Source of the DNA: Bacteroidota bacterium
Lineage (GTDB): Bacteria > Bacteroidota > Bacteroidia > JAHEXY01
NCBI GenBank assembly: GCA_023251875.1
Contig: JAHEXY010000006.1
Location: forward strand, 1-64,000
Direction of reading: 5' to 3'
Length of the DNA: 64,000 nucleotides
Within the stretch, counting starts at the first letter, position 1; each line of letters starts with the position of its first letter. A program made the translations under genes and the position numbers. Below the pieces are notes generated by a model. The model worked only from the letters and a program-made list of their open reading frames with translations, made no database searches and was not told the DNA's origin. Below are positions 4,080-19,604 of the stretch, piece by piece.

Positions 4080-4214
4080 GGTGGTAACGGTTTGCGGCTT
4101 GGCGAAGGTGGCGATTTAACCACAAATGTTCATACGAAGCACACACTTCAAATTTACGAAAAACTGTCATACGAAGCACTGAACCGCCACTTTTGCCAAA
4201 CCGCTGTTAGTGGC
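4080..4214 (-). repeat. attC-like site 4
   Basis: Outer boxes are GGTGGTAAC (4080-4088) and GTTAGTGGC (4206-4214). Arms are 4094-4113 and 4185-4204 (GCGGnTTGGC...GTGGCG). The loop repeats CATACGAAGCAC twice. The minus strand opens GCCACTAAC, the complement of the mercury cassette start at 5516-5524. Confidence 0.85.
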
Positions 4215-4237
4215 TGGGCTTCTTTGTTTTCCGTCTG

Positions 4238-4444: not shown

Positions 4445-4445
4445 T

Positions 4446-5045
4446 TTAATTTTCTTTTTTGTCGGTTACAGAATATCCTGTTGAGTTTATTGCTTTTTCG
4501 ATTTCAGAAATATTTGTTTTTGAGTTGTCAAATTCTATGATTGCATTTCCATTTTCATATGAAGCGTTTGAACTTATTATTCCTGTCAATTTATTTACTT
4601 CGTGATTTACGTGTTCTTCGCAACTCGCACAAGTCATTCCGCTAATCGTAAATTTTACTTTTTGAATATTGGATTTGTCCACTACTATGATTTGCTTTTC
4701 TTTCTTTGGGTAGAAAATGCTTGAATAGTATGGAAAGGCAAGCATAACGATTGCAAATGCTGTTACAATTCCTAAAAACATTTTTGACTGAATGAATTTT
4801 GGTTTTTCTTCTGTCTCACAGTTGCAGTCAATTTGCTTTTTAGGTTTCAACTTTTGATACCAAGCAAAACCAAGAACCAAAATTGTCAAACCGATAAAAT
4901 ACGGTCTGAAAGGTTCGAGCCAAGAAAAAGTAGAAGCAAGTCCGCTTGTTCCTGCAATGAGAGCCAAGACAGGTGTAATGCAACACAATGAAGCTGCAAT
5001 TGCTGTTAAAAGTCCTGCTCCGATTAGTTTGTTGTCTGTTTTCAT
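4446..5045 (-). CDS. merTP: MerTP-type mercuric transport fusion protein
   Basis: The 199-residue protein fuses a MerT-like membrane part to a MerP-like metal-binding domain. The first helix carries the vicinal pair C21-C22 (S-L-C-C-I-T-P-V-L), the second helix spans about 47-65, C74-N-C76 lies in the loop, and a third helix spans about 90-108. A C-terminal HMA domain follows with G-M-T-C-A-S-C at 136-142. In the family, Hg(II) passes from the HMA cysteines to the membrane pair and into the cytoplasm. The start ATG overlaps the stop of the upstream regulator (ATGA). No merA reductase lies in this cassette or window, which is odd for a detoxification locus. Another soft metal is possible. Confidence 0.85.
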   Translation of the reverse strand: MKTDNKLIGAGLLTAIAASLCCITPVLALIAGTSGLASTFSWLEPFRPYFIGLTILVLGFAWYQKLKPKKQIDCNCETEEKPKFIQSKMFLGIVTAFAIVMLAFPYYSSIFYPKKEKQIIVVDKSNIQKVKFTISGMTCASCEEHVNHEVNKLTGIISSNASYENGNAIIEFDNSKTNISEIEKAINSTGYSVTDKKEN

Positions 5046-5416
5046 AATGTTTCTAATATTTTGTTTTCGTCAAGTATTTTGAAAAACGGTTTCAGCATTT
5101 TTTCATACTCTTTTGTCAACGAGTAAAAAATGGTTTGTGCTTCTCGTTCGGTTTCAATAAGTTTTCTGTCTTTGAGTTTTCTCAAGTGTTGTGAAACTGC
5201 TGAAATTGTCATACCGAGAATGTCGCTTATATCACAAACACAAAGTCGTTTTTCTTCATAGAGCAGAAATAGAATTTTCAGTCTTACGTTGTTTCCTGCC
5301 AATTCAAGTCCGTTCGATAAATAGTCAAACGAGCCGTTGAGTTCTGAAACTCGGTCTTTACAGCGGTTTATTTGTTTAATGTCCGCTTGTTGTCTTATAC
5401 AAGAATTGTTGTCCAT
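5042..5416 (-). CDS. ArsR/SmtB-family metal-responsive repressor
   Basis: I chose the ATG at 5416 (124 residues). A longer frame starts at 5509, but that ATG lies in the ATGACGACA leader seen at several unrelated cassette starts. The product is a winged-helix ArsR protein: L-K-I-L-F-L-L at about 47-52, then the metal-site signature L-C59-V-C61-D, then the recognition helix M-T-I-S-A-V-S-Q-H-L-R-K-L. N-terminal cysteines at 6 and 19 could complete a thiolate site. Family members repress their own operon until metal binds. It is first in a three-gene operon with MerTP and the GDCC protein, so Hg(II) is the likely inducer (inference). Confidence 0.85.
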   Translation of the reverse strand: MDNNSCIRQQADIKQINRCKDRVSELNGSFDYLSNGLELAGNNVRLKILFLLYEEKRLCVCDISDILGMTISAVSQHLRKLKDRKLIETEREAQTIFYSLTKEYEKMLKPFFKILDENKILETL

Positions 5417-5515
5417 AGCACAAAGGTAGTCAATTTGTTTATTTAAGCAACTGCTAAAATATAAAATGTCAAAAAGAACCCGATTTTGTCTGACGGGTTG
5501 TGTCGTCATAGCCTT

Positions 5516-5654
5516 GCCACTAACGTTTTTGGGCTTGGCGTTCGTGCGGGATTTCAGGGCACAAAACTGTCAACCCAGCACTAAAGTTGATTTGAAAAAC
5601 TGAACTTGAATTTAAGCACATCACCCCGCATGACGCCAAACCCATGTTACCGGC
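5516..5654 (-). repeat. attC-like site 5
   Basis: Outer boxes are GCCACTAAC (5516-5524) and GTTACCGGC (5646-5654). Arms are 5531-5550 and 5625-5643 (GGGnTTGGCGT...TGCGGG). The loop has GCACAAAACTGTCAACCCAGCAC. The minus strand opens GCCGGTAAC, the complement of the defence cassette start at 12328-12336. Confidence 0.85.
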
Positions 5655-5741
5655 TGGTGTTCTGTCTGTCCGTCCTTGCAAACCATTGTCAATATTGAGT
5701 TTCACCGTCATTGTCTGTGTCGTGTTGGTCTGTGCGGTTGC

Positions 5742-5789
5742 GTATTTTTTATTTTCAGAAGGGGAGGAGATTTTTTTTAATTCAATTTT
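5742..5789 (+). repeat. Inverted-repeat partner A inside the defence cassette
   Basis: Two blocks, GTATTTTTTATTTTC (5742-5756) and ATTTTTTTTAATTCAATTTT (5770-5789), recur in opposite orientation at 12168-12182 and 12139-12158, separated by a different short spacer. The surrounding 5655-5884 is non-coding and includes a stem GCTCTTTTGCAAGC / GCTTGCAAATGTGC at about 5811-5864. Confidence 0.6.
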
Positions 5790-5884
5790 GTCTGCGTGGG
5801 AAAGGTGGAAGCTCTTTTGCAAGCTTTGGTCTGTGCTCGGGCTTGTGCGGCTTGCAAATGTGCTTACACCTGTGCGTTGGCTTC

Positions 5885-7078
5885 TCATCTTGTTACTATT
5901 TCTTCGTTTTTTGAATCGTATTTATATTTCACTATGTCGCCTGAAATAATTAAGTGAATTGCTTGGTCAATTATTCCAACTGGTGCAATAAACCATTCTC
6001 TCGGTGTATGTCTGTTGCCCTCTTTGTCAAACACGTCAATGTTTAAGCATGAGTTGCCAAAGAAATTATGAATTAGTTGCTCAAACTTTTGAGGATTCAT
6101 GTTATAGCATTTGTAAGTCATTAGTATTCTCACATCAGCCATCAAATAAGTCGGCTCTTGAATTGCGTATTTTACTCTGTCCTCAACATTTGTTGTCGAA
6201 AATCCAATTTTATAAAGGTTTTGAATTTCTCTAATTTCTTGTTTGTCGCTTTTTGATTTGAGAATGTAGATATAACCTGCTTCTTCGTCATGTTCTGTTA
6301 TGTTGCTGAATGTTTCTAAAAAACTTTCATTTACATCATCTACATTTTCACTTACTGCCTTTCCATTTGCTAAAAGTGCTTTGTATAAAGAACGAAACAA
6401 CATATTTGATTCAGTTCCATTTTCAAAAAGAACTCTTGTTCGTCCGTCTTTTCTTTCTCTGCTACCGCTTTTATATTCCTGAACTTCTTTCTTTTCGTCA
6501 ACGCTTTCTAAATATAGCAAAATGCCATTGTGAACATAAAAATCACCTGCTCTCAAATTCTCTTCTTTAAATGTAACTAACCTACGTTTGCCATTTTTTA
6601 AATCTTTCTGAACATCTTTAAACTGTTGCTCGTATTTAGAAAAATCTTTGCAAGGTTTTCTTCTTGCAACAAAGTCAGAACTTGCTCTTTCATCAATTTT
6701 TTTGATGTGTTTAAACTCAAATAATCCTTCTGAATCATCTGCTAAAAGTCCTAAATCATCATCATTAAAAATGTCGTCAAAAGATTGGATAATTTTAATT
6801 TCAAAGTTGAGTAAACCAAATTTGTCATGTGGTTTAAGTATTTCAATTTTAGCTGGATTTTCTCTTAATGATTTTAGTCTTGCATACAATTGATGTTCTT
6901 GAATGCCACCGCCTTGTTCGGGTTCTCGGTTATTCTTTTCGTAGAACTCATTTATTTCTTGAAACGATGCAACAAGCCTTTCATCTTCATTTCTTGCAGG
7001 TGAAGTTGCCGGCTTTACATTTAATAAGCCCAACGGGTCGTCATCAAAAATATTTTTAAGTATTTTATCCTTGTCCAT
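5885..7078 (-). CDS. GIY-YIG / T5orf172-domain protein, YeeC-like
   Basis: This 397-residue protein carries a C-terminal GIY-YIG-fold domain of the T5orf172 type: G-Y-I-Y-I-L at 268-273, Y-K-I-G at 289-292, Arg301 and a late Glu at 333, which match the nuclease core residues. The N-terminal half is acidic and holds two copies of a short motif, F-D-D-D-P-L-G-L-L at 11-19 and F-N-D-D-D-L-G-L-L at 104-112. It is the last gene of a three-gene operon and overlaps the helicase by 14 bp. In B. subtilis, YeeC has the same domain beside a helicase and a methyltransferase. The likely role is DNA cleavage or recognition in a defence system; activity is inferred. Confidence 0.85.
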   Translation of the reverse strand: MDKDKILKNIFDDDPLGLLNVKPATSPARNEDERLVASFQEINEFYEKNNREPEQGGGIQEHQLYARLKSLRENPAKIEILKPHDKFGLLNFEIKIIQSFDDIFNDDDLGLLADDSEGLFEFKHIKKIDERASSDFVARRKPCKDFSKYEQQFKDVQKDLKNGKRRLVTFKEENLRAGDFYVHNGILLYLESVDEKKEVQEYKSGSRERKDGRTRVLFENGTESNMLFRSLYKALLANGKAVSENVDDVNESFLETFSNITEHDEEAGYIYILKSKSDKQEIREIQNLYKIGFSTTNVEDRVKYAIQEPTYLMADVRILMTYKCYNMNPQKFEQLIHNFFGNSCLNIDVFDKEGNRHTPREWFIAPVGIIDQAIHLIISGDIVKYKYDSKNEEIVTR

Positions 7079-9197
7079 TGTTCGCTTTTCTTTTTTGTTC
7101 TTTCAAAAAGATAATTGCTTCTGCCATTCTTCGTTCCAAAGGGTCGGTTGAATTAAGACTTGGCTCACGTTTAAAAGTATTTGCAAAGGCTTTTATCTTA
7201 TCCCAAAGCAATGCAGCTTCCTCCAATGTCATTGTAATTCGTGTTGCTTCAATTACATCTTGAATTACTTTCAAAACTTTTGGCGTTACATCTTTTGATA
7301 AAATTTCAAATGCTTTTTGAAAAGGATTTATGCGGTCTATCAAATCAATGTGTAAATCATCAATGTTTACAAACTGTCCTGCCATTCTTATAAATCGCTT
7401 GTCTGCCTGTGTATCGTCATTGTTGCCTGTCGGCAAGGTTACATTTAACTTACTGAATGAACTTGCTTCGTCTGCTGTCAAATCTGGATAAACGGTTTGA
7501 ACAATTTTCGGAATTAATTCTTTTTCAATTATTTGATTTGGATTAGCTTCTGCAATTGCTTTTTTAATTCCTTCATCTTCTCGTATTGCCTTTTTAATAG
7601 TGGCAACATCAATCATCAAATTGTTTTTGACTACCGAATCTAAAACTACATACTGCCTTACTTCTTCAACTTGTTCTTCGGATAGCTCAGGATATTTTTT
7701 GGCAATTATGTTTGGTATTAAAACCTTGTTGATTACTTCAGGGTCAATCGTTCCGGGCAATGCTTTCAGCATGGTGTCATTTTGCAGAATAGTTGCCTTC
7801 AAATCGTTTAGGTCCGATTCAATAATTTCTTTGGTGCGTTGCGAACTTGGTTTTTTCAATCCGTGAACTTTTATTTCTCCTTCCTCTGCTTTGTCATCAT
7901 CAGAAACTTTTGGCTTGAATTTGAAATTTGGTGCAAGCACTTGTTCCATTAGCAAGGATGCAGTAATTGCTTTCAACATATTGTTTACGGAAAGTCTTAC
8001 CAATTCGTCTGCTGCATCGGGTTGTGCAATTAGGTTTGTAAACTGTGCATGAGATTTATTGCTACTGTCTCTTGTGCATCGCCCAATAATTTGAATGATT
8101 TCTGTTAGCGAACCTCTGTAACCTATCGTTAAAGCATGTTCACAAAATGGCCAGTCAAAACCTTCTTTTGCCATACCTAATGCAATTATCAAATCCATGT
8201 CGTCAACGGTTTTGATTTCTCTTAAGTAAGCAACCACTTTATCTCTGTCTTTCGGATTATCGTTTACCAAATCAGCAATTTTCAAAATTTTGCCGTCTGA
8301 TTTTCTTTTTAAATGAATTATTCCTGTTGCACTATCTACTTTTTGAATATCACCAATGGAATCTAAAATCATTCCTACTTCATTGTGTTTGTCCTTGGTA
8401 GATTCGCCTGAATTTACATTTGGAATGTGTAGAATCGTTTTCTTGTCAGTGTCTAATATTTCAAGAATAGCAGAAGTATATTTTCCTTGATAAAAATGAT
8501 AGCCAATTCCCAAAGATTTTAAGTAGGTATAGCCGTTTAGCTGCTGATAATAGTTGTATGTTACTTTGGTAAACTTGGCTTCGTCTTGTGGCACTAATAC
8601 TGGAACAGTATCGCCTCTAAAATATGAACCAGTCATTGCCATAATATGAACATTTGACTTTGCCATTAAGCTACGCAACAATTCTCCTAAACGGCTGTCG
8701 CCATCGGCTGAAACGTGGTGAAATTCGTCAATAGCTAAAAGAGTGTTGTCAAATTTTGATTCGTCTAATTCTTCAAATGCAAAGCGAAGTGTAGCATGGG
8801 TGCAAATCAATATTTTTTCATCATTGTCTAAAAAGTTTTTGAACGCCTGCACTTTGCTTTTGCTTCCATCCATTCCTGGCGTGCAAAGGTTGTATTCATC
8901 GTTTGGCTCCCAATCAGCAAAAAATCCAAAGTCTTTTAATTTGGTTTTGCCAAATGAACCGCCAATAGATTTTTCGGGAACAGCTACAATTACTTTTTTC
9001 AAACCTTGATGCACCAATTTGTCTAAGGCGATAAACATTAATGCACGACTCTTGCCTGATGCAGGTGGTGCTTTCAATAAAAGATATTGTGCATCTCTTG
9101 CCTGATACACCTTTTCTTGCATTTCTCTCATTCCAAGAGCATTTAACTTGGAGCTTTGCCCTGTTTGGGCGTAGGTTACGTTTACTATATCAGGCAT
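7065..9197 (-). CDS. Superfamily 2 DEAD/DEAH-type helicase, YeeB-like
   Basis: The 710-residue protein has a complete SF2 core: Walker A P-P-A-S-G-K-S (44-50), motif II D-E-F-H (157-160), motif III T-G-S (189-191) and motif VI Q-I-I-G-R-C-T-R (369-376). The last 300 residues are helical and of unknown role. It overlaps the methyltransferase gene by 8 bp and the GIY-YIG gene by 14 bp, so the three proteins are probably made in fixed proportion. As in type I, type III and related restriction systems, an ATP-driven translocase between a methyltransferase and a nuclease would move or unwind unmodified DNA. The order and sizes match B. subtilis yeeABC. Confidence 0.88.
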   Translation of the reverse strand: MPDIVNVTYAQTGQSSKLNALGMREMQEKVYQARDAQYLLLKAPPASGKSRALMFIALDKLVHQGLKKVIVAVPEKSIGGSFGKTKLKDFGFFADWEPNDEYNLCTPGMDGSKSKVQAFKNFLDNDEKILICTHATLRFAFEELDESKFDNTLLAIDEFHHVSADGDSRLGELLRSLMAKSNVHIMAMTGSYFRGDTVPVLVPQDEAKFTKVTYNYYQQLNGYTYLKSLGIGYHFYQGKYTSAILEILDTDKKTILHIPNVNSGESTKDKHNEVGMILDSIGDIQKVDSATGIIHLKRKSDGKILKIADLVNDNPKDRDKVVAYLREIKTVDDMDLIIALGMAKEGFDWPFCEHALTIGYRGSLTEIIQIIGRCTRDSSNKSHAQFTNLIAQPDAADELVRLSVNNMLKAITASLLMEQVLAPNFKFKPKVSDDDKAEEGEIKVHGLKKPSSQRTKEIIESDLNDLKATILQNDTMLKALPGTIDPEVINKVLIPNIIAKKYPELSEEQVEEVRQYVVLDSVVKNNLMIDVATIKKAIREDEGIKKAIAEANPNQIIEKELIPKIVQTVYPDLTADEASSFSKLNVTLPTGNNDDTQADKRFIRMAGQFVNIDDLHIDLIDRINPFQKAFEILSKDVTPKVLKVIQDVIEATRITMTLEEAALLWDKIKAFANTFKREPSLNSTDPLERRMAEAIIFLKEQKRKANNGQG

Positions 9198-11976
9198 TTT
9201 TCTTTTTTTTCGTTTTAATTTTTACTGGTTCAAAATTCAATTCACCGATATTTTCCTTTTCTTCGGCTATCATTTGTTCATAGAGTTTGAACAAATATTC
9301 TAAGCGTTCTTCATCGTTTGAAAACGGTTTACTTCGATAGCAGCGTTCTACTGCATGGTCAAGTTGATTATGTGCTTCACGCAAACCATCGGGCATCTTA
9401 TCAGGGTCGTAAAGTTGAGCTAGTGTTTTTTCTGAATGATTTTCTCTTTCTCCTAAAACAGCATAAGCATGTCTTTCTAACTCTTGCTTTTGTTCTTGAT
9501 TTATTTCGGGAAATGGAAATGTATTCCAAGATAGGGCAGATAAATACCTAATCCTACTGTCTAATTTTCCTGAAGTAAGTCGCAACCAGCAATTATGAAT
9601 TTTTGAACTGATAATAGAAAATATGTAAAGTTCAGGGTCATAAATTGCAGCCGCTGAACTTATAACTACTGAGTTATTGTCTGTGAACCCAATAGGGATA
9701 TATTCTCTTCTTTCTGATGATACAATAGGAATAATGATTTGATGCTTTTTTGCTGTGTGAGTATACCTAAATTGGTGAGAACGGTTTGCAATACCTCTGG
9801 CAACATCACCACCATCAATTCTAAATGCTCTTGTTTTTTCAATCCTTTCTTTTATTTCAGGTATTGATTCGGCTAAATCTAATTGTTCATTTGTAATCCA
9901 AAAACAATATTTATAAATGTCATTCAATAACTCATCAGCACCTATTGTTCTTTTTATTAAAGGCTTAACTTGTGGATATTTATTTTCAATGAATGATTTA
10001 AAATCTTCATCAAATCGCAAATTGTTGTTGTCATAAGGACTGTTACCCGTTATCATCTGAGGCAGATTAGATAGTAAATTCAATCTTTGTGATATGATAA
10101 CATCTCTAGCAGGTAAAATATATGAATTAATATTTTCGACAGTGTATTTATGAGAGCCACTGTAAATTATTTTTTTATTCAAAGACTTATGATCAATACC
10201 AATAATTGAAACAGAAACCCCAGCATTACTTTTGGCATTGTTTGACCATGGAAATGGGTGATATGCAAAACTGATTTGCAAATTCCTTGAATAAATAAGA
10301 GGCCATAATTGATTAACTTGAGCTCCTTGATTGATTGAGCTAGTAGTTACAAAAGCAAACCTTGCTGAATTTAATTCTTTAGTAAAATTTGCTGCCAATA
10401 AAAACCAAGATGCTATATAATCAAGTTCTTTATAATTTTGAATGCCTTTAAACACAATTTCCATATCCTCTTTCTGAATTTTAGATTGAGATTTGCCTCC
10501 TAAATATGGTGGATTGCCTAAAATGTAAATTTCATCGTCTGTCTTTTTAGGACAAACCTTTTCCCAATCAATTCTTGTGGCGTTGCCGTGAGTAATGTGT
10601 CCGCCTTCTTTCAAAGGAAGTGTTGGGTTGCCTGTTCCAAATGCTTCTTTAAACTTCATATTCATTTGGTGCTGTGCTAACCAAAGTGAGAGAATTGCAA
10701 CTTCATGAGCAAAATCGTCTAACTCAATGCCATAAAAATTCTCTAACTCAATTCTTGTAAACATGGTTGTTTGGTAAGAAGCCGCCAAAGTCAATTGTGC
10801 TTTTGGAATCAACTCTAATTGATGTGGTTCAAAACCTGTTGCCACTTTTTGCAAGGTTTGAAGTTGTTTTAAAATTTTAATTTCCAGTAAACGCAACTCC
10901 TTGTAAGCAATAATTAAAAAATTGCCGCTGCCGCAGGCAGGGTCAAATATTTTAATCTTTCCAATTCTTTCAAGGAGTTTGTTTAATCTTCTTGGGTCGT
11001 ATTTGGCTGCTTCAAATTCTTCATAGAGTTCAGTTAAAAATAGCGGCTCAATTACTTTCATTATGTTTGGCACACTGGTATAGTGCATACCCAAACCACC
11101 ACGATGTTCAGGAGAAATAACTGCCTGAATCATTGAACCAAAAATGTCGGGATTAATTTCACTCCAATCTAACTCGCCACTTTCAATTACAACTTGTCGG
11201 CTTCGTCTTGTAAAAATGGGTGCAGTGTGTGGTTTGCTGAATAAGCCACCATTTACATAAGGAAAAGCATTAAGGTAAGCAGGTAAGTTTTTGCGTTTTG
11301 GGTAATCTGTATTCATTACCACAAACAACTTGTCAAGATAGTCGTGTAAATCGCTGCCGTCTTGCTGGGTGTGGCTGCTTATTCCTGTTGTAAATTGTCC
11401 TTTACTGAATATGTCTGTGTCTTCGGCAAAAAAGCAAAAAAGTAAACGGCTCAAAAAAACATTGAGATTGTGAACTTGCTCTGGTGTTTTGGTTGGGTTG
11501 TCTTTCTTTATTTCGTCATACAATTTTGCCATTCTTTCTGCCGCTTTTACATCGGCAGGGTTTTCCATTTGGGCTTGTGCTTTTTCCATGCCAGCCCAAG
11601 GCAAAAAGAAATCAAAGTGTTTGGCAATGTCAAGAATTGGAATGTCTAAAGTGTCTTGTGTTTTGGTGTCAAACGCCAAAAGGGTTTTGTAGTCGGTAAC
11701 GATTATAAAACGTGGATTGTGTTTATTGGCTCGGTCGTTTTTCTTTACAAGGTCAAAAAGCGTTTGCGGATTTTCGTCAAAAGCAGATTTGAAAAACAAT
11801 TTTTTCTTCCAAGCAATTTCTCCTTCTATTTTAGATAAGTTCAGTCCGCCTTTTTGTAGTCGTGTAATAGTGCTTTTAGGCGTGTCATACGCCAAAAGCA
11901 AGTCATAAATGAAAGTCTCCTTTTTGAAAGACTTTATTAGCTGCTGTAAATTATTTTCTATTTGGGCTATGTTCAT
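9190..11976 (-). CDS. Class I SAM-dependent DNA adenine methyltransferase, YeeA/MmeI-like
   Basis: The 928-residue protein has SAM-binding motif I F-D-P-A-C-G-S-G-N-F at 344-353, catalytic motif IV N-P-P-Y at 488-491 (amino-methyltransferase, probably N6-adenine) and H-Y-T-S at about 298-301 ahead of the SAM domain. The N-terminal 170 residues resemble the MmeI-like N-domain (L-N-L-S...E-I-A-W-K-K-K-L-F-F-K). I could not identify a convincing PD-(D/E)xK nuclease site there. The C-terminal 350 residues are probably the target-recognition domain. It is the first gene of the operon in the 6.8-kb cassette and would protect self DNA. Confidence 0.88.
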   Translation of the reverse strand: MNIAQIENNLQQLIKSFKKETFIYDLLLAYDTPKSTITRLQKGGLNLSKIEGEIAWKKKLFFKSAFDENPQTLFDLVKKNDRANKHNPRFIIVTDYKTLLAFDTKTQDTLDIPILDIAKHFDFFLPWAGMEKAQAQMENPADVKAAERMAKLYDEIKKDNPTKTPEQVHNLNVFLSRLLFCFFAEDTDIFSKGQFTTGISSHTQQDGSDLHDYLDKLFVVMNTDYPKRKNLPAYLNAFPYVNGGLFSKPHTAPIFTRRSRQVVIESGELDWSEINPDIFGSMIQAVISPEHRGGLGMHYTSVPNIMKVIEPLFLTELYEEFEAAKYDPRRLNKLLERIGKIKIFDPACGSGNFLIIAYKELRLLEIKILKQLQTLQKVATGFEPHQLELIPKAQLTLAASYQTTMFTRIELENFYGIELDDFAHEVAILSLWLAQHQMNMKFKEAFGTGNPTLPLKEGGHITHGNATRIDWEKVCPKKTDDEIYILGNPPYLGGKSQSKIQKEDMEIVFKGIQNYKELDYIASWFLLAANFTKELNSARFAFVTTSSINQGAQVNQLWPLIYSRNLQISFAYHPFPWSNNAKSNAGVSVSIIGIDHKSLNKKIIYSGSHKYTVENINSYILPARDVIISQRLNLLSNLPQMITGNSPYDNNNLRFDEDFKSFIENKYPQVKPLIKRTIGADELLNDIYKYCFWITNEQLDLAESIPEIKERIEKTRAFRIDGGDVARGIANRSHQFRYTHTAKKHQIIIPIVSSERREYIPIGFTDNNSVVISSAAAIYDPELYIFSIISSKIHNCWLRLTSGKLDSRIRYLSALSWNTFPFPEINQEQKQELERHAYAVLGERENHSEKTLAQLYDPDKMPDGLREAHNQLDHAVERCYRSKPFSNDEERLEYLFKLYEQMIAEEKENIGELNFEPVKIKTKKKKNA

Positions 11977-12327
11977 TTATATCTCTGTCGTTTGGCTAAA
12001 CAATATAGCTCGTAAAGTTAATATTTATATAACCGTAGCTTGTCGGTGCGTTGGCAAAAAACGGCTCTTTGGCTTTTGCCTGTGGGTTGGCTTGTGCGGT
12101 TGGGGCAAAAGCCAATGTGCCGTTTGTGCGGCTGCCATAAAATTGAATTAAAAAAAATGCGGGTGGGGAAAATAAAAAATACAGAAGGGTTGGCAATGAG
12201 TGTCGGCTTACTCGTTGTCCGTGTGAAATATGGTCTGTATGTTGGTCACCTGTCAAAATGGTTTGTCTTTGTGTTAATGTTCAATTTTTAGTCGTCTGTG
12301 TCAATGTTGCAGTGTCGTCATACACTT
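11977..12327. other. Leader of the defence cassette, non-coding
   Basis: About 350 bp between the cassette start and the methyltransferase hold no plausible gene. A strong stem-loop spans 12059-12125: AAACGGC..TTTGGCTTTTGCC pairs with GGCAAAAGCCAA..GCCGTTT. The first bases of the cassette contain ATGACGACACTGCAACATTGA, a seven-codon mini-ORF like those in two other cassettes. A promoter for the operon probably lies here, but I see only a weak TATATTG at about 12001-12007 on the minus strand. Confidence 0.5.
12139..12182 (-). repeat. Inverted-repeat partner B inside the defence cassette
   Basis: This is the minus-strand counterpart of 5742-5789, with identical 20-bp and 15-bp blocks and a different spacer. 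The two copies bracket the three-gene defence operon within one cassette. Confidence 0.6.
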
Positions 12328-12510
12328 GCCGGTAACGTTTGGCAGCTTTGCGATGTGCTGGTATTACTTGCACAAAACTGTCTGCCTGCACAAAGTTAAA
12401 TTAAAAGCACAACTGCTCATTGCAAATGTTTAAGAAAAAATTTATACCGCTAAAAAAAACATTTGCGACTTGCACAAACCCCAGCATATTGCAAAGGTGT
12501 TGTTAGTGGC
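12328..12510 (-). repeat. attC-like site 6 (long form with nested hairpin)
   Basis: Outer boxes are GCCGGTAAC (12328-12336) and GTTAGTGGC (12502-12510). Arms are 12341-12361 and 12481-12501. A second stem inside the loop pairs GCAAATGTTT (12422-12431) with AAACATTTGC (12457-12466). The loop has GCACAAAACTGTCTGCCTGCAC. Confidence 0.85.
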
Positions 12511-12539
12511 AGTTTTTCTGTCCGTTATAAAATGTGCTT

Positions 12540-13046
12540 TCATAATTTTTTATTAAGTTCTTCAAGCATTGCAGTCAATTTTTGCAAGTCAGTCCATTCG
12601 TTTGGAAGATAGTGCCATTTAAAAGTTGTCTGTGTGCTTTCAACTCCAATATTTAAAGTATAAGAAATTCCATCAAGAATTATTCCGCCACATTTATCAA
12701 GTCGTGGCTTAACAGAAATTGTCTTAGCAAAATCAATAATGTCATTTAGTCCATTCTTGTCTGTCGTGCCACTTTCATATTTAATGGTCGGTTTAATTGT
12801 TTGCCCTAAATACTTTAAACTTTCAAGTGGGTCGTAAAATTTTGGTGCGTCAACAAGTCGAAACCAAGTCGTTCTATACCATTTAACTATTTTTTCATTT
12901 ATTTCAAGTTGTAAGTGAAAACTACTGTCAAATGAAGGTTCAATAGCAATTTGAATGTTTGGCTTATACCTATCTATATTTTGTCCGAGCAACAAAGAAG
13001 TCTGCGCTTCGTTCATAAAGTCAAACCATTTTTTGCTATTGTCCAT
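12540..13046 (-). CDS. Hypothetical cytosolic protein, cassette gene
   Basis: I set the start at the ATG at 13046 (168 residues), 36 bp inside the cassette boundary. A longer frame would cross the recombination site. The protein lacks a signal peptide or membrane segments and mixes alpha and beta stretches with many aromatic residues (W-Y-R-T-T-W-F-R-L, F-K-W-H-Y-L-P-N-E-W). It ends in an acidic helix. I do not recognise the family. It is the only gene of its cassette, with its stop 30 bp from attC-like site 6. Confidence 0.7.
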   Translation of the reverse strand: MDNSKKWFDFMNEAQTSLLLGQNIDRYKPNIQIAIEPSFDSSFHLQLEINEKIVKWYRTTWFRLVDAPKFYDPLESLKYLGQTIKPTIKYESGTTDKNGLNDIIDFAKTISVKPRLDKCGGIILDGISYTLNIGVESTQTTFKWHYLPNEWTDLQKLTAMLEELNKKL

Positions 13047-13073
13047 TGATAATTTGGTGTGTTTCCTAAAATT

Positions 13074-13207
13074 GCCACTAACGTTCCGCGGCCTGCCGCA
13101 GTGCGGGGTTTCGGAGCACAAGGCTGTCCGCTGGAACAAAGATAATTAAATGCGGGATCTTTATTTTACCGATGATGCCCGCATTGAGGCAGACCGCTGT
13201 TACCACC
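13074..13207 (-). repeat. attC-like site 7
   Basis: Outer boxes are GCCACTAAC (13074-13082) and GTTACCACC (13199-13207). Arms are 13088-13108 and 13178-13197. The body is identical to site 3. Only the outer left box differs, because that box belongs to the neighbouring cassette. Confidence 0.85.
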
Positions 13208-14152
13208 AGTGCAGTTTTGTCGTGTGACCGTCCTCATGCAATAAACTTGAAGTCGAAGAAAAATACTGTCGGGGTACAGATCACCGTCCACGCAATAGTC
13301 TACGGGAGGACTGTCATACGATAAAACTGTCTGCGTAGCGGTTTGCCGAGCCGAAGCGGAAAATAAAAACGAAGGGCGAGCCGATTTGCAACCCATAAAA
13401 AAGCGTCTACCGCTAAACGGAAGGTTGCAAATGGGCTTGCCCTGAGAATCCAATTATTATTAGAAGCGGAGTCAGCCGGTTTGCTCTTTTGCTTGCGCAG
13501 CTTGCAAAAGTGCAAAGCCGGAACGCATGCTTATTTGTCTGCCGAATCAAGCATTTTTAGCGAAGCTAATGCTAAACCGTTTTCAGGATATTCTTTTAGT
13601 GTCTGCTTGTAGTATTCTTTTGCTTTTAGTCCGTCACCTGTCTGACTGTAACAAAATGCAATGTTACACAATGCAGATTCTCGATAACCCATTTTTGAAA
13701 TGCTTAAAAGTGTTAGAAAACGATACTTGTCAACCCACTTGTTTTTTGTAAAGTATTCAAAACTCTTTTCAAAAAACGGAATTGCTTCTGTAAATTTTTG
13801 TTGCTTAACAAGTTTTATTCCTTGTCTATGTTTTTTCGCAATTAAATTTCTAAGTCCAATTGCAAAGACAGCCCAAGTCAATGCACCCAGAATTAATGGG
13901 TCGCCAAGGTCAGCTAAATGATAAGTGTAGATCAATATCCCAATTATAACAAGTTGCGGAATGATTGAAAGCCATGAAATCTGTCTAATAGTCGGTACAT
14001 TAGAAGCCATAATTTTATAGTTGATTTTTTATGAATTTTATTTTTTTAAAGTGGGCAGAACTACTGTCTTTTGCATTGTCAAGGTGAAGTAAACTTGTCT
14101 GTCCAAGAGTAACTGTCCACCGTGTCATTGTCTTTTTTTGCATTGGTGGTAA
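13082..14152 (-). repeat. Duplicated cassette, copy 2 (1071 bp)
   Basis: Second copy of 3017-4087, same orientation, 10,065 bp away. Its ends coincide with the TAA/C junctions that bound every other cassette. Confidence 0.9.
13531..14010 (-). CDS. Membrane-anchored TPR-like protein (copy 2)
   Basis: Identical in sequence and setting to the gene at 3466-3945: two N-terminal hydrophobic segments followed by TPR-like helices, sole gene of its cassette. The absence of any change between the copies suggests a recent duplication or ongoing homogenisation. The preceding 13208-13530 is the same non-coding, stem-loop-rich tail as in copy 1. Confidence 0.75.
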   Translation of the reverse strand: MASNVPTIRQISWLSIIPQLVIIGILIYTYHLADLGDPLILGALTWAVFAIGLRNLIAKKHRQGIKLVKQQKFTEAIPFFEKSFEYFTKNKWVDKYRFLTLLSISKMGYRESALCNIAFCYSQTGDGLKAKEYYKQTLKEYPENGLALASLKMLDSADK

Positions 14153-14327
14153 CGTTTGGCAGCCTTGCGATGTGCTGGTTTAGAAAGCACTTCACTGTCT
14201 GCTACCACAAATATAAATTAAAAGCTCCACAGGTTATGGCAAGCGCCAACAAAATGTTTACACCACTGAAAAAATGCGCTTGCAGCTTGCACGAACCCCA
14301 GCATATTGCAAGGGTGCTGTTATAGCC
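14145..14327 (-). repeat. attC-like site 8 (long form with nested hairpin)
   Basis: Outer boxes are GGTGGTAAC (14145-14153) and GTTATAGCC (14319-14327). Arms are 14158-14178 and 14298-14317. The nested stem is GCAAGCGC (14239-14246) with GCGCTTGC (14276-14283). Sequence differs from sites 6 and 9 while pairing is kept. Confidence 0.85.
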
Positions 14328-14741
14328 AGTTGTTTTTTCTGTTTGGGTTAAAAATATATTTTCTAAAAGTCTCTCGGGTCAATGATTACAAGCACTTACT
14401 TGTCGTTTACTACTAACCGTTATTAAATAATTGTCAACCAAATTTTTGCGTGTCGGTTTACAATGGTCTTAAAAGTCTTGCAAACACAGGTCTTACGAGC
14501 AACAAACGTTTAAGTGTCTGCCGTAAAATTCTACAAATGTCTGCAAACGTTATTGTCTGTTGTATTTAAACACTTGTCAAACCACGCTATTAAACCCCTT
14601 CGGCTTTGTTTTAATGTCCGCCGCGGCAAATACGAAGAACTAAACTGAATTATAAAAGTCAAAAAAAATGTCGAAGAACGGGCATTAAAAAAAAGTCGAA
14701 AAAAGTCCTACTGTCTGTTTGCGTAAATGTCTAATACAATT
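14328..14741 (-). other. ORF-less cassette body
   Basis: Between sites 8 and 9 there are 414 bp with no plausible reading frame on either strand. The longest minus-strand ATG frame near the cassette start gives an eight-residue peptide. The cassette is bounded normally by GTTATAGCC and GGCTATAAC. It may encode a small RNA, carry a promoter for downstream cassettes, or be a decayed gene. A GC-rich patch (GCCGCGGCGG, minus strand) sits near 14621-14630. Confidence 0.6.
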
Positions 14742-14925
14742 GGCTATAACGGTTCGCAGCCTTGCGATGTGCTGGTATTACTTGCACTTCACTGTCTGCT
14801 ACCACAAATATAAATTAAATGCTCAACAGGTTATGGCAAATGTTTAGAAATAAATTTATACCGCTTTAATAAACATTTGCATCTTGCACGAACCCCAGCA
14901 TATTCGCAAGGGTGCTGTTACCAGT
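14742..14925 (-). repeat. attC-like site 9 (long form with nested hairpin)
   Basis: Outer boxes are GGCTATAAC (14742-14750) and GTTACCAGT (14917-14925). Arms are about 14756-14775 and 14895-14915, with one extra base in the right arm. The nested stem pairs 14836-14846 with 14870-14880 (GCAAATGTTTA). The loop has CACTTCACTGTCTGC as in site 8. Confidence 0.85.
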
Positions 14926-14933
14926 AGTTGTTT

Positions 14934-15509
14934 TTATCCATATTCGTCAACAAGTTGTCGTAAGTGTTTAAACAAATATGTCCGAGTTTCCTGATCCTTT
15001 TCGGTTTGAAGTCTTTTATTAATGTCAATAAACTTAGAACTTAAAAGTTTAAAGCTTTCCGTCTGCAAATAATTGTCCAACCATTCAGAAAAGCCTTGCA
15101 AGTCTGGAAGCTCGCTTAAATATTTACAATAGTCAGCGAACTCTATTGTTTCCCAATTTGAATGTTCAAATTTGTCTATGCGCTGAATAGGTCTGGAAAA
15201 ATAAATGTCGAAAAGGTAAGTGTTTGAACAAAACGTTTTAAATGCTTTTTTCTCAGCGTCTTTTAACTTTCCATTCTTGAAAAGTATAATTGTCCATTCA
15301 AATAAAAAGTCTGGCCGACCTATGTCGTCAGGGAAATTTTTATCAAACCACCTTAAATAAGTTAATCCACCAGAAAAGTCTGCAATTTTAATATACAAAC
15401 CGGTCGGTTCGTATCTAAGTCCGCGACTGTCGTCATAGCAACCAAACCTGCGTTTTTCAGAAGCAAGTGTCGCACGTATATTCTTAATTCTTGTTAACTC
15501 TCTTTTCAA
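14934..15509 (-). CDS. Hypothetical protein, cassette gene with TTG start or frameshifted 5' end
   Basis: A 191-residue frame opens with TTG at 15509; an in-frame stop lies just upstream. The nearby ATG at about 15524 opens a different frame that ends after 13 codons (M-T-E-N-N-F-E-K-R...). A one-base indel would join it to this gene. The product has no signal peptide or membrane segment and is aromatic-rich (Y-L-R-W-F-D-K-N-F-P-D-D, N-W-E-T-I-E-F-A-D-Y). I do not recognise a family. Its stop is 9 bp from the end of attC-like site 9. Confidence 0.65.
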   Translation of the reverse strand: MKRELTRIKNIRATLASEKRRFGCYDDSRGLRYEPTGLYIKIADFSGGLTYLRWFDKNFPDDIGRPDFLFEWTIILFKNGKLKDAEKKAFKTFCSNTYLFDIYFSRPIQRIDKFEHSNWETIEFADYCKYLSELPDLQGFSEWLDNYLQTESFKLLSSKFIDINKRLQTEKDQETRTYLFKHLRQLVDEYG

Positions 15510-15543
15510 AGTTATTCTCGGTCATAGTTGTCTACTTACAATT

Positions 15544-15679
15544 ACTGGTAACGTTTCGCAGCTACCCGAAGGGCGGGTCTTTTACCACAAAACTTGATTT
15601 GAAAAACTAAACTTCCATTAACCACAAAACTGTCTTTGGAACATGAAACCCCGCCTTTTGGGTAGCTGCTGTTATGTGC
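15544..15679 (-). repeat. attC-like site 10
   Basis: Outer boxes are ACTGGTAAC (15544-15552) and GTTATGTGC (15671-15679). Arms are 15558-15577 and 15650-15669 (GCAGCTACCC...GGCGGG). The arm sequence is unrelated to the GCGGG/TTGCG arms of its neighbours while pairing is kept. Confidence 0.85.
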
Positions 15680-15695
15680 TGCCCTATTTGTCATG

Positions 15696-16436
15696 CTATC
15701 CATGTCCGTTCAATTTATGTTGTCGGTGTGCTATGAAAATTAAAATAGTCATTACGCCAACGGAAACGAGTGAAGAATATAATGTGCCAAGATTAAGTCC
15801 ACCTTTGTCAAGTGGTTTAGTCAGAAAGTCACCAAAGGTTGCTCCGAATGGTCGGGTGAAAATAAAAGCAACCCAAAACAAAATGATGTGATTGATTTTA
15901 GTGAGATAGTGTAGAAGCACAACAACAAGAATTACTCCGCCTGTTACAATGGCACCTTGCAGATAACTTATTTCGAAATAGTCGCCAAGAAAATCTCCGA
16001 ATGCAGTTCCTAAACTATTGGAGAAAAGAATTGCTGTCCAATAGTAAATTTCTTTTTGCTTGTCAGTGATTGGAAATACTTCAAGATTCTGGTATTTGCG
16101 AAACCATAAAAACAAAGTGAGTAATAAGCAACTTACAAGTAAAATGCTTCCTGTGGTATAACCAAGATGTAGTGTTCTGTCAATGTAGTCGGAAATTTCT
16201 GTGCCTAAAGTTGTCGTGGCGATAATGACTAACCAATAAATAACTGGAACATATTTCTTTACTGCAAGTTGTGTGAATAATACGACAATAAAAAATACAA
16301 GGGTAATCACAATGCCAACTGTGTAACCCAAGTTTAAAGTCATGGAAATAAAATCGCCAAGGGTCGTGGCGACAATTTTCATAAGCCAAAATATCAAAGT
16401 GATTTTGGCAACCTTGTTCATTAGTTTTGTTGTCAT
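15696..16436 (-). CDS. COG4705-like multi-pass membrane protein
   Basis: The 246-residue protein has about eight hydrophobic segments and four internal repeats built on T-x-G-x-x-x-x-D-x-x...G-Y-x-x-G (A-T-T-L-G-D-F-I-S, T-T-L-G-T-E-I-S-D-Y, N-S-L-G-T-A-F-G-D-F and R-P-F-G-A-T-F-G-D-F). This repeat architecture fits the COG4705 membrane proteins, whose function is not established. It is third in its cassette, separated from the two upstream genes by an intrinsic terminator, so it may need its own promoter. Confidence 0.75.
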   Translation of the reverse strand: MTTKLMNKVAKITLIFWLMKIVATTLGDFISMTLNLGYTVGIVITLVFFIVVLFTQLAVKKYVPVIYWLVIIATTTLGTEISDYIDRTLHLGYTTGSILLVSCLLLTLFLWFRKYQNLEVFPITDKQKEIYYWTAILFSNSLGTAFGDFLGDYFEISYLQGAIVTGGVILVVVLLHYLTKINHIILFWVAFIFTRPFGATFGDFLTKPLDKGGLNLGTLYSSLVSVGVMTILIFIAHRQHKLNGHG

Positions 16437-16460
16437 ATGTGCTTGTCTTTTTGAATGGAT

Positions 16461-16495
16461 AAAAAAGCGAATACCGGCTTGCCGGTATTCGCTTT
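16461..16495 (-). terminator. Rho-independent terminator after the PepSY-like gene
   Basis: Perfect 15-bp arms (16464-16478 and 16481-16495, AAAGCGAATACCGGC) with a TT loop. On the minus strand the stem runs into TTTTTTA. It starts 12 bp after the PepSY-like stop codon. Confidence 0.9.
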
Positions 16496-16506
16496 AATTT
16501 TGTTAT

Positions 16507-16971
16507 TTAATCTTTCTTCTCTTTCCCTTCTACTTTTGTTTTGCTTAAAACTTTTCCGTCTGCTGAATACAGGACATCAAAAGTTTCTTCGCCTTTCTCA
16601 ACTTCGGCTTCATAACAGTTGCCGTTTTTCACACTTTCAATTTTACTGGCTTCGTTTATTTTGTAGCCCTCAAAATCTTTTTTGAGCGATGACTGTATTG
16701 CAGTAGGTAAGGCAGAAACTTTAATTTCAGTTTCTGTTTCCATCCACTTTCCTATATTGTCAAAGTTTGCAGAAACTTCTTCACTGTTCAGCTTGAAGTT
16801 AGCTTCATACTCTGTTTTTTCCATTTCCCAACTCACTTTTGTAGCAGTCGGAAATTTCGCCTTAAACGCTGATGTAACAGAAGCAGGAACTTTGTCGGCA
16901 GATATTTTTTGAGCATTAGCGACATTGCTCATCGTTGCTGCAACAAGCAGCATAAAAATTATTTTTCTCAT
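16507..16971 (-). CDS. Secreted PepSY-like (BLIP-type) protein
   Basis: This 154-residue protein has a signal peptide ending A-N-A-Q at residue 21. The mature part holds two PepSY-like repeats, marked by V-P-A-S-V-T-S-A-F-K-A-K-F-P-T-A...V-S-W-E and L-P-T-A-I-Q-S-S-L-K-K-D-F-E-G-Y. Such tandem repeats are common in small periplasmic proteins of Bacteroidota; the role is not firmly known, with metal stress or envelope sensing suggested. It follows the 130-residue gene with a 77-bp gap and ends at a strong terminator. Confidence 0.82.
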   Translation of the reverse strand: MRKIIFMLLVAATMSNVANAQKISADKVPASVTSAFKAKFPTATKVSWEMEKTEYEANFKLNSEEVSANFDNIGKWMETETEIKVSALPTAIQSSLKKDFEGYKINEASKIESVKNGNCYEAEVEKGEETFDVLYSADGKVLSKTKVEGKEKKD

Positions 16972-17048
16972 TTTCTTTATTATTAATTGTTTGAAATAAT
17001 GTTACTGTCAAATCCAAGATGGACTTGATAAAACTAAAAGTAAAAACA

Positions 17049-17441
17049 TTAACCTATCGGAGGGCGGAATACAAAAGGAGTGAAGTCTGAAAAATAAAAA
17101 CCCTCTGTGTAAATTGGGAAGTCGCTTTTTTTGGGTAACGGCTTTTGAAATGCAATTTTAAATCGTTGTGTTATAAAAATTGTCTGTGCAAGTGTGTGAT
17201 GAAGTTGAATAGGCGTATGCGGCTTTTGCTCATCTCCATTGTCGTGCTTGTCAAAAATGCCGTCAATATTTATGAGATGGTCTGTAATGAAGTCAAGTGG
17301 TGTCATATCCTTGTCCTCTGTCGCCTTGCAATGCTGATACATTACAGGCATGTCGCCAATTACTGAAAAGTCTCCCTGCGGTAAACAAAAAGTCCCGAAG
17401 AAGTAATATGTCAAAAGCAATATAGATGTCAGTCGTATCAA
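17049..17441 (-). CDS. Small protein with N-terminal hydrophobic segment, unknown function
   Basis: The frame opens with TTG at 17441; no in-frame ATG precedes it before a stop. The N-terminus is a hydrophobic helix (I-L-L-L-T-Y-Y-F-F-G-T-F-C), so the 130-residue protein is probably exported or anchored. The rest contains D-F-I-T-D-H-L-I-N-I-D-G-I-F-D and ends F-V-F-R-P-P-I-G. I recall similar short proteins near Bacteroidota metal-efflux genes, but cannot name the family with confidence. It is the first gene of a three-gene cassette. Confidence 0.65.
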   Translation of the reverse strand: MIRLTSILLLTYYFFGTFCLPQGDFSVIGDMPVMYQHCKATEDKDMTPLDFITDHLINIDGIFDKHDNGDEQKPHTPIQLHHTLAQTIFITQRFKIAFQKPLPKKSDFPIYTEGFYFSDFTPFVFRPPIG

Positions 17442-17511
17442 ATGTTTTTTATAACGGTAAAGTTATGTTTTTATTTCTGTCGGGTGATGATTGCACTGTC
17501 TTTTTAGGGTT

Positions 17512-17647
17512 GCACATAACGGTTCGGGGGTTTGCGAAGTGGCGGATTAAAACGCACATCACTGTCCCACAGCACAAAGATATTTAATTGCACGAAACTT
17601 TCTACTCGCAATGAAACCGCCATTTTCGCAAACGCCTTGTTAGCGCC
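17512..17647 (-). repeat. attC-like site 11 (nearest to the recombinase)
   Basis: Outer boxes are GCACATAAC (17512-17520) and GTTAGCGCC (17639-17647). Arms are 17526-17545 and 17617-17636. The minus strand opens GGCGCTAACAAGGCGTTTGCG, close to the start of classical attC sites, and its first nine bases complement the first cassette start at 18380-18388. Confidence 0.87.
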
Positions 17648-17649
17648 AG

Positions 17650-18369
17650 TTATTTTTCTATGAATTTATTTCCGTCAAAGTAGTATTGACCTTTTGTCCG
17701 CTTGTTCATATTGTCGTGAGTGTAGTCATATATTAATGTTTTAGTTGTCTTGTCGAATTTGAAAATTATATTTTCATAGGTGTCCGTGTCTATGGTAAAG
17801 AAAGATTTCTCGCCAAATGCAGAGTAGTCCAGTAAGTTGTCGCCTTGTATTTGAAAAACTCTTGCTCCATAGAAAAAACAAGAATTGCAACCCGTCCCGT
17901 TGCCAACAATTAAAAACAAATTTGTCTTGAGTTTGTAAATATTGGAATACCACAAGTTGTCTTCTGTTGCGCCTGATGCTTCACCGTCTATGGTTTTTAA
18001 AATTATTTTTCCTGTCGCTCCTTTACATTGAATAAAAGTTTTTGTCATGTGAAATGAACCGCCATTCCTTGCGTCAACTGTCAGTACGCGAAGTTGTCCA
18101 GCAGTGAGAAAAGAATAATTGTCCAGTATTTTAAACGAATAATTAAAAGTTGTCGGGGTTTTGAAAAAATTAATTACAACGCTGTCTAATGTATGGAATA
18201 AGGAATCCCGCAAGTCGGTGTCCGCAAGAGTAGTGTCAATTTGCCATTTTAATTTTAAATATGATTTTTCAAACAACAAAGTGTCCGCTGTCTTGGTTTG
18301 TCCTGCTGTCAAAAAAGGAAGAGCGAATAAAAACAAAAACGGAATTGTCTTAATGGACTGTCGTGTCAT
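17650..18369 (-). CDS. Secreted hypothetical protein, first cassette of the array
   Basis: I chose the ATG at 18369, which begins a good signal peptide (F-L-F-L-F-A-L-P-F-L-T-A-G-Q). The alternative ATG at 18405 lies on the recombinase side of the attI-like junction and cannot belong to the cassette. The mature protein of about 217 residues is beta-rich, with a G-C-N-S-C-F-F-Y-G motif near the middle and repeated Y/F-rich strands towards the end. I do not recognise the family. As the cassette closest to the promoter candidate it should be the best expressed. Confidence 0.75.
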   Translation of the reverse strand: MTRQSIKTIPFLFLFALPFLTAGQTKTADTLLFEKSYLKLKWQIDTTLADTDLRDSLFHTLDSVVINFFKTPTTFNYSFKILDNYSFLTAGQLRVLTVDARNGGSFHMTKTFIQCKGATGKIILKTIDGEASGATEDNLWYSNIYKLKTNLFLIVGNGTGCNSCFFYGARVFQIQGDNLLDYSAFGEKSFFTIDTDTYENIIFKFDKTTKTLIYDYTHDNMNKRTKGQYYFDGNKFIEK

Positions 18370-18379
18370 TTTTATAATT

Positions 18380-18400
18380 GGCGCTAACTTGTTTATACCC
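18380..18400 (-). other. attI-like half-site at the recombinase end of the array
   Basis: On the minus strand the sequence reads TATAAACAA followed by GTTAGCGCC, the start of the first cassette. The AAACAA-GTTA junction resembles the end of the classical attI1 site (AAACAAAGTTA). No second inverted arm lies on the recombinase side, as expected for attI rather than attC. A short stem ACGCCAT/ATGGCGT (18441-18447 with 18451-18457) lies between this site and the recombinase stop and may be a terminator or a binding site. Confidence 0.7.
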
Positions 18401-18468
18401 GCCAATTTATTTCGTTTATCTTTCTATTTTGGGCAGATAAACGCCATAAGATGGCGTATATTTAGGTG

Positions 18469-18500
18469 CAAATATAGTGTCTTTATTATAGATAATCGAA
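18469..18500 (-). promoter_or_regulatory. Candidate cassette promoter (Pc-like)
   Basis: On the minus strand TATATTTG (18476-18469) matches the Bacteroidota -7 consensus TAnnTTTG exactly. A TTCG at 18500-18497 lies 20 bp upstream in the -33 place (consensus TTTG). It points into the first cassette from about 80 bp away and starts inside the recombinase 3' end. Confidence 0.5.
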
Positions 18501-19604
18501 GGGAGAGGTAATGTTTTGAATGCTTTTTGTGCTAACATGTGTGTAAATTTCAGTAGTTCTACTGCTACTATGCCCTAATATTTCTTGTATGTATCTTAGG
18601 TCTGTTCCGCTTTCAAGCAAATGTGTTGCATAGCTATGTCTAAGCCAATGCAGCGTTACAGGTTTTTTAATACCAGCTTTTAATACACTTTGCTTAATCA
18701 CATTTTGTAAACTCCTTTCGTCATAAGGATTATTAGCAATTGCTCCTTCAAATAAATAAATTTTAGGCTTAAATGAAATATAATATGAACGAAGTAAATC
18801 AATAATCTTATTACTGAGTGGGGCTATTCTATCTTTTCTACCCTTTGCTTGTTTAATAATTAAAACGTTTCGTTTAGAATCTACATGTTCTGGCTTTAAT
18901 TTTAATATTTCACCACAACGTAAACCGCAAGCATATACTAATGATAACATGGCTTTATGTTTCAAATTTTGTGGCGCATCTAAAATTTTTTTGACTTCTT
19001 CTTTGCTCAAAACATTGGGTAATAATTTAGAACGTTTAGGCCGGTGAATAACTTCAATATTGATGGTAGTATCTTTTATTGTTGTAAAAAATAATTTAAT
19101 GGCATTTACTACTTGGTTTTGATAAGAGGCTGATAATTTGTGTTTCAAAATAAATTCATTGTTAAATACAATAACATCATTATTATTAATTTCAGTAATA
19201 GGTTTTTGCCAAAAAAATTTTAAAAATGATTGTAGTGCATTGGTATAGGTTTCAATAGTACTATCGCTATATCTTTTTGAACGCATCCAATGTTTATACT
19301 TTTCAATTTTATCTATTGCTTCTATTGTTAAATGATTATGGTTTGAGTGAGTTTTGATATACTTTTCCTTTGCTAATTTCTCTTTTAAAATACTGGCATC
19401 AATTTTTGCATATCCATTAAATATGTCTTTTATCTGGTATAATGCTTGATTCGAATATACAGTATACCAAGCTCTTTGGGTGTTACTCCATTCAATATTT
19501 TCTATTCGTTTAACTTTTTCTATTAAATACTTATCATACGGAAATTTTAAAAGCAAAATTTCTTTTCCCTTGTGGCTCGTTTTATCAAGTATAAGATTTA
19601 TCAT
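18486..19604 (-). CDS. Tyrosine recombinase, Xer-like, probable cassette integrase
   Basis: The 372-residue protein has an extra N-terminal domain of about 85 residues (H-K-G-K...W-S-N-T-Q-R-A-W-Y), a SAM-like core-binding domain at about 95-180 and a C-terminal catalytic domain. Catalytic residues are Arg229, Lys254, His319, Arg322, His345 and Tyr354. Only 65 residues separate the Lys from the first His, against about 72 in XerD and about 106 in IntI1 (from memory), so the IntI-specific insertion is absent. The end I-T-S-P-F-D-Y-L resembles Xer/IntI tails. It reads towards the array, the reverse of classical intI. Adjacency to the attI-like end is the basis for calling it the integrase. Confidence 0.85.
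   Translation of the reverse strand: MINLILDKTSHKGKEILLLKFPYDKYLIEKVKRIENIEWSNTQRAWYTVYSNQALYQIKDIFNGYAKIDASILKEKLAKEKYIKTHSNHNHLTIEAIDKIEKYKHWMRSKRYSDSTIETYTNALQSFLKFFWQKPITEINNNDVIVFNNEFILKHKLSASYQNQVVNAIKLFFTTIKDTTINIEVIHRPKRSKLLPNVLSKEEVKKILDAPQNLKHKAMLSLVYACGLRCGEILKLKPEHVDSKRNVLIIKQAKGRKDRIAPLSNKIIDLLRSYYISFKPKIYLFEGAIANNPYDERSLQNVIKQSVLKAGIKKPVTLHWLRHSYATHLLESGTDLRYIQEILGHSSSRTTEIYTHVSTKSIQNITSPFDYL

Follow-up and report, generated by a model that had tools for sequence, protein, structure and literature searches.

Related systems

Canonical integrons combine the recombinase IntI with an attI site and an array of cassettes bounded by attC sites, and the I2 helix of IntI is regarded as the novelty through which integron integrases became able to handle folded single-stranded attC sites, and as a requirement for cassette capture (PMC7790495). 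The locus described here lies at the start of the window, i.e. the whole stretch of DNA analysed (64,000 nucleotides from a Bacteroidota bacterium, contig JAHEXY010000006.1). It shares with canonical integrons tandem cassettes in one orientation, complementary cores of the GTTRRRY/RYYYAAC type, an attI site beside a tyrosine recombinase gene, and palindromic, foldable sites. Unlike them, it has a recombinase without I2 and sites without extrahelical bases, as well as spacers of 1 and 5 nt, a G·T pair at stem position 14 (bottom strand), a 15-nt R arm and a frequent promoter-like box in the loops. Since I2 and extrahelical bases are two defining marks of canonical integrons, we do not class the array as one; it appears to be integron-like in its working, yet a variant, in which arrays stand beside I2-less recombinases.

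Other described systems resemble the locus in part. As in the inverted integrons of the Treponema type, the integrase gene and the cassettes read the same way (PMC3607928, PMC6557892), but no canonical IntI is present here, and both the sites and the recombinase differ. Like the VCR sites of V. cholerae, the long sites of the window have a large tip that folds into branches, with the difference that here the branch shows covariation and its loop is conserved, and that the spacers measure 1 and 5 nt instead of 5 and 5 (PMC2727003). An integron-like subgroup of simple tyrosine recombinases, made up of IntI-like proteins with an incompletely conserved specific insertion, has been reported (PMC8138268); the present recombinase resembles it, whereas the accessible part of that report assigns no cassette arrays to the insertion-less members. 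Finally, gene-less cassettes of Vibrio and oral Treponema carry promoters that drive the next cassette of the array (PMC11014356, PMC6557892); the promoter-like box seen here lies instead inside the recombination site, at a fixed position. In the searchable literature, whose coverage excludes most subscription journals, we found no report of cassette arrays beside insertion-less integron-like recombinases.

A cassette array with complementary ends

The cassette array spans positions 1–18.4 kb of the window, and a hairpin scan of 1–18 kb gave 11 attC-like sites of the form TAAC...GTTA, all on the minus strand. Three of the 11 measure 179–180 nt from R box to R box: sites 6 (12330–12508), 8 (14147–14325) and 9 (14744–14923). 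The others are short (130–135 nt): sites 1 (111–241), 2 (1444–1575), 3 (3011–3140), 4 (4082–4212), 5 (5518–5652), 7 (13076–13205), 10 (15546–15677) and 11 (17514–17645), the last of which closes the first cassette. The short sites fall inside the published attC range of 57–141 bp (PMC5371416) and the long ones outside it. The original prediction had put the long sites at 183–184 bp; the difference from the 179–180 nt counted here between the 7-nt core boxes is one of edge placement. As the cassette genes are on the minus strand, the plus strand is the bottom strand.

In all ten cassettes of the window, the sequence that follows one GTTA is complementary to the sequence that precedes the TAAC of the next site, which is the mark of a cassette closing into a circle; the complementarity of RYYYAAC and GTTRRRY across the circular junction, by which canonical integrons are recognized, is thus found here as well. 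Among 56 cassettes from 12 genomes, the 5' and 3' ends were complementary at positions 5–9 in 96–98% of cases, compared to 28–56% when the ends were re-dealt. In these 56 cassettes the arm formed by the cassette ends contains an invariant mismatch at position 11 (always A at the cassette start), is mostly paired at positions 12–15 and ends at nt 15.

A cassette encoding a TPR protein is present twice on the minus strand, as copies A (3013–4089) and B (13078–14154): the 1,077 nt are identical without a single mismatch, and the identity ends at both predicted GTTA crossovers. At the sequence level, this exact duplication is direct evidence of recent site-exact movement. Together, the complementary cassette ends and the mismatch-free duplicate ending at the crossovers indicate that cassettes move in this array in the manner of an integron.

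As regards cassette contents, the 6,677-nt cassette at 5653–12329 carries three genes, for an MmeI-type restriction-methylase, a DEAD-box helicase and a T5orf172 protein, which together resemble a defence set. Complementarity of its ends is retained, and it may be either one very large cassette or two cassettes minus a site. The cassette at 4213–5517 carries a MerT/HMA mercury-transport-like gene and a gene for an ArsR-family regulator.

A tyrosine recombinase lacking I2

Directly upstream of the array, and in the same direction, lies a gene (18489–19604, minus strand) for a tyrosine recombinase of 372 aa, which matches PF00589 and has the catalytic residues. On the integron integrase model TIGR02249 the protein scored 206.7 bits, short of the cut-off (265), and its alignment left out profile positions 177–237; the same stretch was skipped in the alignment to the solved IntI4, and the best match was XerA. 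Judged by its position and by the published description (PMC7790495), the missing stretch probably corresponds to the I2 region. This insertion, the additional domain that characterizes IntI, was missing in all 15 proteins aligned, whereas the catalytic R, K, H, R, H and Y were invariant in them. No canonical IntI above the cut-off was found in the 17 array-bearing genomes, and a survey of 395 genomes of the class gave an IntI-like match in 154 and a match above the cut-off in one.

An attI-like site (18376–18403, minus strand; crossover GTTAGCG at 18382–18388) adjoins the recombinase gene, as attI does in canonical integrons, and the first cassette begins at a conserved AAGTTA. This motif, or a close form of it, recurs about 100 nt past the recombinase stop in several orthologues, which diverge beyond it. 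Several contigs break off 0–250 nt past the recombinase, a pattern that the start of a repetitive or variable array would be expected to produce. One contig (G082:C19, locus L261) ends exactly at the attI-like GTTA, as if different first cassettes coexisted in the population.

Stem anatomy of the attC-like sites

The L stem is ungapped, with spacers of 1 nt on the 5' side and 5 nt on the 3' side, in 68 of 81 sites; pairing at these fixed offsets leaves them without the extrahelical bases found in the L'' arm of canonical attC sites. The central spacer between the R and L boxes is present but strongly asymmetric, the R arm is 15 nt long, and site 9 has a single 1-nt bulge. Among 50 distinct arm pairs, 41 have A·C at stem position 14 when read on the sense strand, which makes G·T on the bottom strand, and 3 have a Watson–Crick pair there; an enlarged set overlapping these 50 gave A·C in 42 of 48. 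The outer stem also covaries: its arms vary yet still pair, with 36 distinct 10-mers in 48 arm pairs. The bottom strand was predicted to be the more stable one in 60 of 68 sites, a figure that describes a folding bias only.

An Rfam search of 1–18.4 kb gave no match to a structured-RNA family, even at E=1. Sub-threshold matches to unrelated hairpin families revealed strong intergenic palindromes outside the array, at 29897–29986 and 32466–32560. A degenerate arm pattern run against viral and genome contigs was abandoned because nearly all its matches were due to chance (the true ones being L043, L140 and L150), and the plasmid sequences searched for sites gave no match. A lone site in genome G094 has no A·C at position 14, and its assignment is doubted.

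Association with I2-less recombinases across genomes

The association between sites and recombinases was assessed with 35 I2-less recombinases that had been chosen without regard to sites and whose downstream DNA was scanned over as much as 15 kb: the sense orientation yielded 29 sites with this architecture, at 8 loci, and the antisense orientation 3. The integrase gene and the cassettes have the same direction, as in inverted integrons, in the window and in most array-bearing relatives, the exception being genome G245, where the array is upstream and divergent instead of downstream. The assignment of a second recombinase in G029, which is accompanied by weak site matches only, is doubted.

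An array within 15 kb is lacking in many I2-less relatives, and the array-bearing recombinases are scattered on the recombinase tree; the proposal that they form one clade was rejected, the label not being monophyletic. Given the array-less relatives and this scattering, an enzyme acting in trans may be involved. No site of this architecture was found downstream of the single canonical IntI; the candidate attC in that genome is divergent and has a gapped stem, which is a single example.

The inner hairpin of the long sites

The original prediction held that the long sites contain a second stem inside the loop, and this stem was recovered in all three, with the arm sequences that had been quoted. 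The hairpin occupies 12422–12466 in site 6 (arms GCAAATGTTT, 12422–12431, and AAACATTTGC, 12457–12466), 14239–14283 in site 8 (arms GCAAGCGC, 14239–14246, and GCGCTTGC, 14276–14283) and 14836–14880 in site 9 (arms 14836–14845 and 14871–14880), and is not assigned to a strand. What separates long from short sites is an extra block of about 50 nt, which holds the inner stem and the loop AGCGGTATAAATTT. It is this block that defines the subclass and not, as had been proposed, the outer arms, which vary freely from genome to genome.

Relatives were located with site 9 as the query, their loci were fetched, and about 70 long sites were gathered by means of an iterated profile. From these we drew 17 distinct inner-arm pairs from about 14 genomes and compared them with controls in which the 3' arms were re-dealt in 5000 rounds. 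Positions 5–9 of the arms formed Watson–Crick pairs in 72 of 85 cases, against 44.8±4.4 after re-dealing (maximum 61 of 5000). The covariation test that had been called for was carried out on an alignment of 30 homologous sites from about 14 genomes: 94.4% of the cells pair, double changes number 26 compared to 6.0±1.8 in shuffled alignments, and the covariation score is 0.303 against 0.127±0.017, a value reached by none of 500 shuffles. The covariation was lost when the partner arm was slid out of register. Pair 5, for instance, is seen as A-T, G-C, C-G and T-A, and the wobbles in the arm pairs comprise five G-U and two A-C. The claim that bases changed together while pairing was kept is therefore confirmed well beyond the window, and no long site in the collection had the same outer arms together with unpaired inner arms; even the weakest members (L211, L204 and L203) retain most pairs. 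These comparisons support the view that selection keeps the pairing of the inner hairpin well beyond the three sites of the window. The inner loop, too, keeps its sequence (CAGCGGTATAAATTTAT); folding alone would not require this, and it suggests recognition by some factor.

The prediction had gone further and placed the whole branched fold under selection, and in this it holds only for the inner pairing. Indeed, when the two strands were folded, the inner hairpin was predicted about equally well on both (mean probability 0.87–0.90), and the outer, recombinogenic stem hardly depended on it: on the bottom strand, blocking the inner hairpin in silico changed the outer stem from 0.86 to 0.85. A requirement of the inner hairpin for outer-stem formation was not supported by this constrained folding.

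Other long sites, in G145 and G245, bear inner hairpins that are unrelated to this one but occupy the same region of the tip. A further small GC-rich hairpin lies within the inner loop of some long sites (L195, L212 and L227). Three contigs of G219 (C23, C80 and C84; L188–L191) contain dozens of near-identical, VCR-like long sites, in which the outer arms pair poorly and the end, TTCGTTCGTTA, is unusual.

A promoter-like box in the loops

The loops of the three long sites contain, on the minus strand, a box similar to the Bacteroidota -7 element: TAACTTTG in site 6 (12391–12398) and TATATTTG in sites 8 (14208–14215) and 9 (14805–14812). TAnnTTTG is the sigma-A -7 box of flavobacteria (PMC9723704). 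It occurs in sense in 39 of 66 distinct loops and in antisense in one of 66, compared to 5.5±2.2, and at most 12, in shuffles. The box faces the next cassette, and in 29 of 43 occurrences lies 65–68 nt from the cassette edge; the leaders of the cassettes are short, many of them below 60 nt. The box may act as a promoter. A -33 box was also considered and dropped, having no independent support.

Interpretation

We consider it likely that sites 6, 8 and 9 are attC-like sites of an integron-like array served by an I2-less recombinase, and that the hairpin is a conserved branch of their tip. Most likely, the XerA/IntI-like recombinase encoded at 18489–19604, which has no I2 helix, would recombine the folded bottom (plus) strand of these sites with the attI-like site, so that cassettes would enter just downstream of the recombinase gene. 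The place of the extrahelical bases read by IntI would be taken by an ungapped stem, the fixed G·T wobble, the 1/5 spacer and the long R arm. The nested hairpin would be a conserved branch within a variable tip, adjoining the promoter-like box that faces the next cassette, and might keep the long tip compact and apart from the recombining stem. The DNA itself shows the cassette structure, the recent precise duplication, the recombinase–site association, the lack of I2 and of extrahelical bases and the covariation of both stems, to which the proposal adds, by inference, the acting enzyme, the single-strand chemistry, the promoter activity and the role of the hairpin. Because blocking the hairpin barely alters the stem, and because deletion of the VTS of VCR has little effect (PMC2727003), a folding role for the hairpin is argued for only weakly; a DNA-level branch of the attC tip is the role that we favour, at slightly less than an even chance. 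The poor pairing of the outer arms in G219 counts against our explanation.

The main rival, which we regard as distinctly less probable than the proposal above, is that the inner hairpin acts on the RNA or promoter level, by ending or protecting the upstream transcript or by positioning the promoter, and plays no part in recombination. The hairpin does lie just upstream of the conserved, sense-only TAnnTTTG, its loop sequence is conserved, the leaders are short, and its 3' arm ends in TTG, mostly 24 nt from the box in long sites. This spacing reflects shared ancestry within the long subclass, however, and is absent from short sites; moreover, no U-run follows the hairpin, some long sites have no TAnnTTTG, and the wobble counts betray no clear preference for the sense strand. 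It is unlikely, in our judgement, that these are attC sites of the ordinary canonical kind, with a long VTS, whose true IntI has been lost or acts in trans (CALIN) and whose neighbouring recombinase is incidental. Large branched VTSs are known from VCR sites (PMC2727003), intI is commonly absent from arrays (PMC9668308) and the GTTA/TAAC cores are canonical, but a canonical IntI is missing from all 17 array-bearing genomes, the stems have no extrahelical bases and bear the nearly invariant mark at position 14, sites in the same orientation were found blind downstream of I2-less recombinases, and no such site turned up downstream of the only canonical IntI, which has a gapped candidate attC.

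Slightly less likely still is a hitch-hiking origin of the 50-nt block, as a functionless MITE- or REP-like insertion that spread with the sites. The block is indeed an add-on relative to short sites, and G219 carries it in very many near-copies; against this, compensatory changes arose in independent lineages, the loop is conserved, and the unrelated hairpins of G145 and G245 occupy the corresponding part of the tip. Double-stranded recombination of the Xer/dif type, with pdif-like modules instead of folded single strands, would suit a XerA-like enzyme devoid of I2, but we hold it to be very improbable: attI and attC share little beyond GTTA, which is too little for an exchange region of 6–8 bp, and the outer arms differ between sites yet stay paired.

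An active-looking array beside I2-less recombinases, with sites devoid of the bases read by I2, offers a natural test of the accepted view of I2 and of integron origins. Such arrays would help to explain why canonical searches have reported few integrons in Bacteroidetes (PMC9024848), and expression of the distal cassettes would be accounted for by promoter boxes that form part of the sites. More tentatively, and with the balance somewhat against it, the arrays could represent a separate branch of integron type, common in this class of Bacteroidota, in which cassettes are taken up by way of folded single strands without I2 or extrahelical bases, polarity is set by the wobble, many sites contain promoters, a strand-specific GAC mark is present (see below), and the hairpin with its conserved loop serves as a recognition element.

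Strand bias of GAC in the array

Counts of the trinucleotide GAC in the window array are 431 for the sense strand and 46 for the other strand (p about 1e-79), a difference of about ninefold in favour of the cassette-sense strand. The bias, which is best expressed by GACA, extends over 1–18380 and is seen in every cassette, in coding and noncoding sequence alike; it stops at the attI-like site, and outside the array GAC is symmetric overall. Among Asp codons, the GAC:GAT ratio is 158:93 in the cassettes versus 70:536 elsewhere. A simple T-to-C change was rejected as the source of the excess, since the loss of GAT is too small. Our guess is that the bias represents a GTC signal on the bottom strand, e.g. 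a priming site. Most arrays of other genomes display the same bias, with little or none in the DNA beside array-less recombinases, and it is also present at loci L189, L216, L217, L222, L223, L297 and L308.
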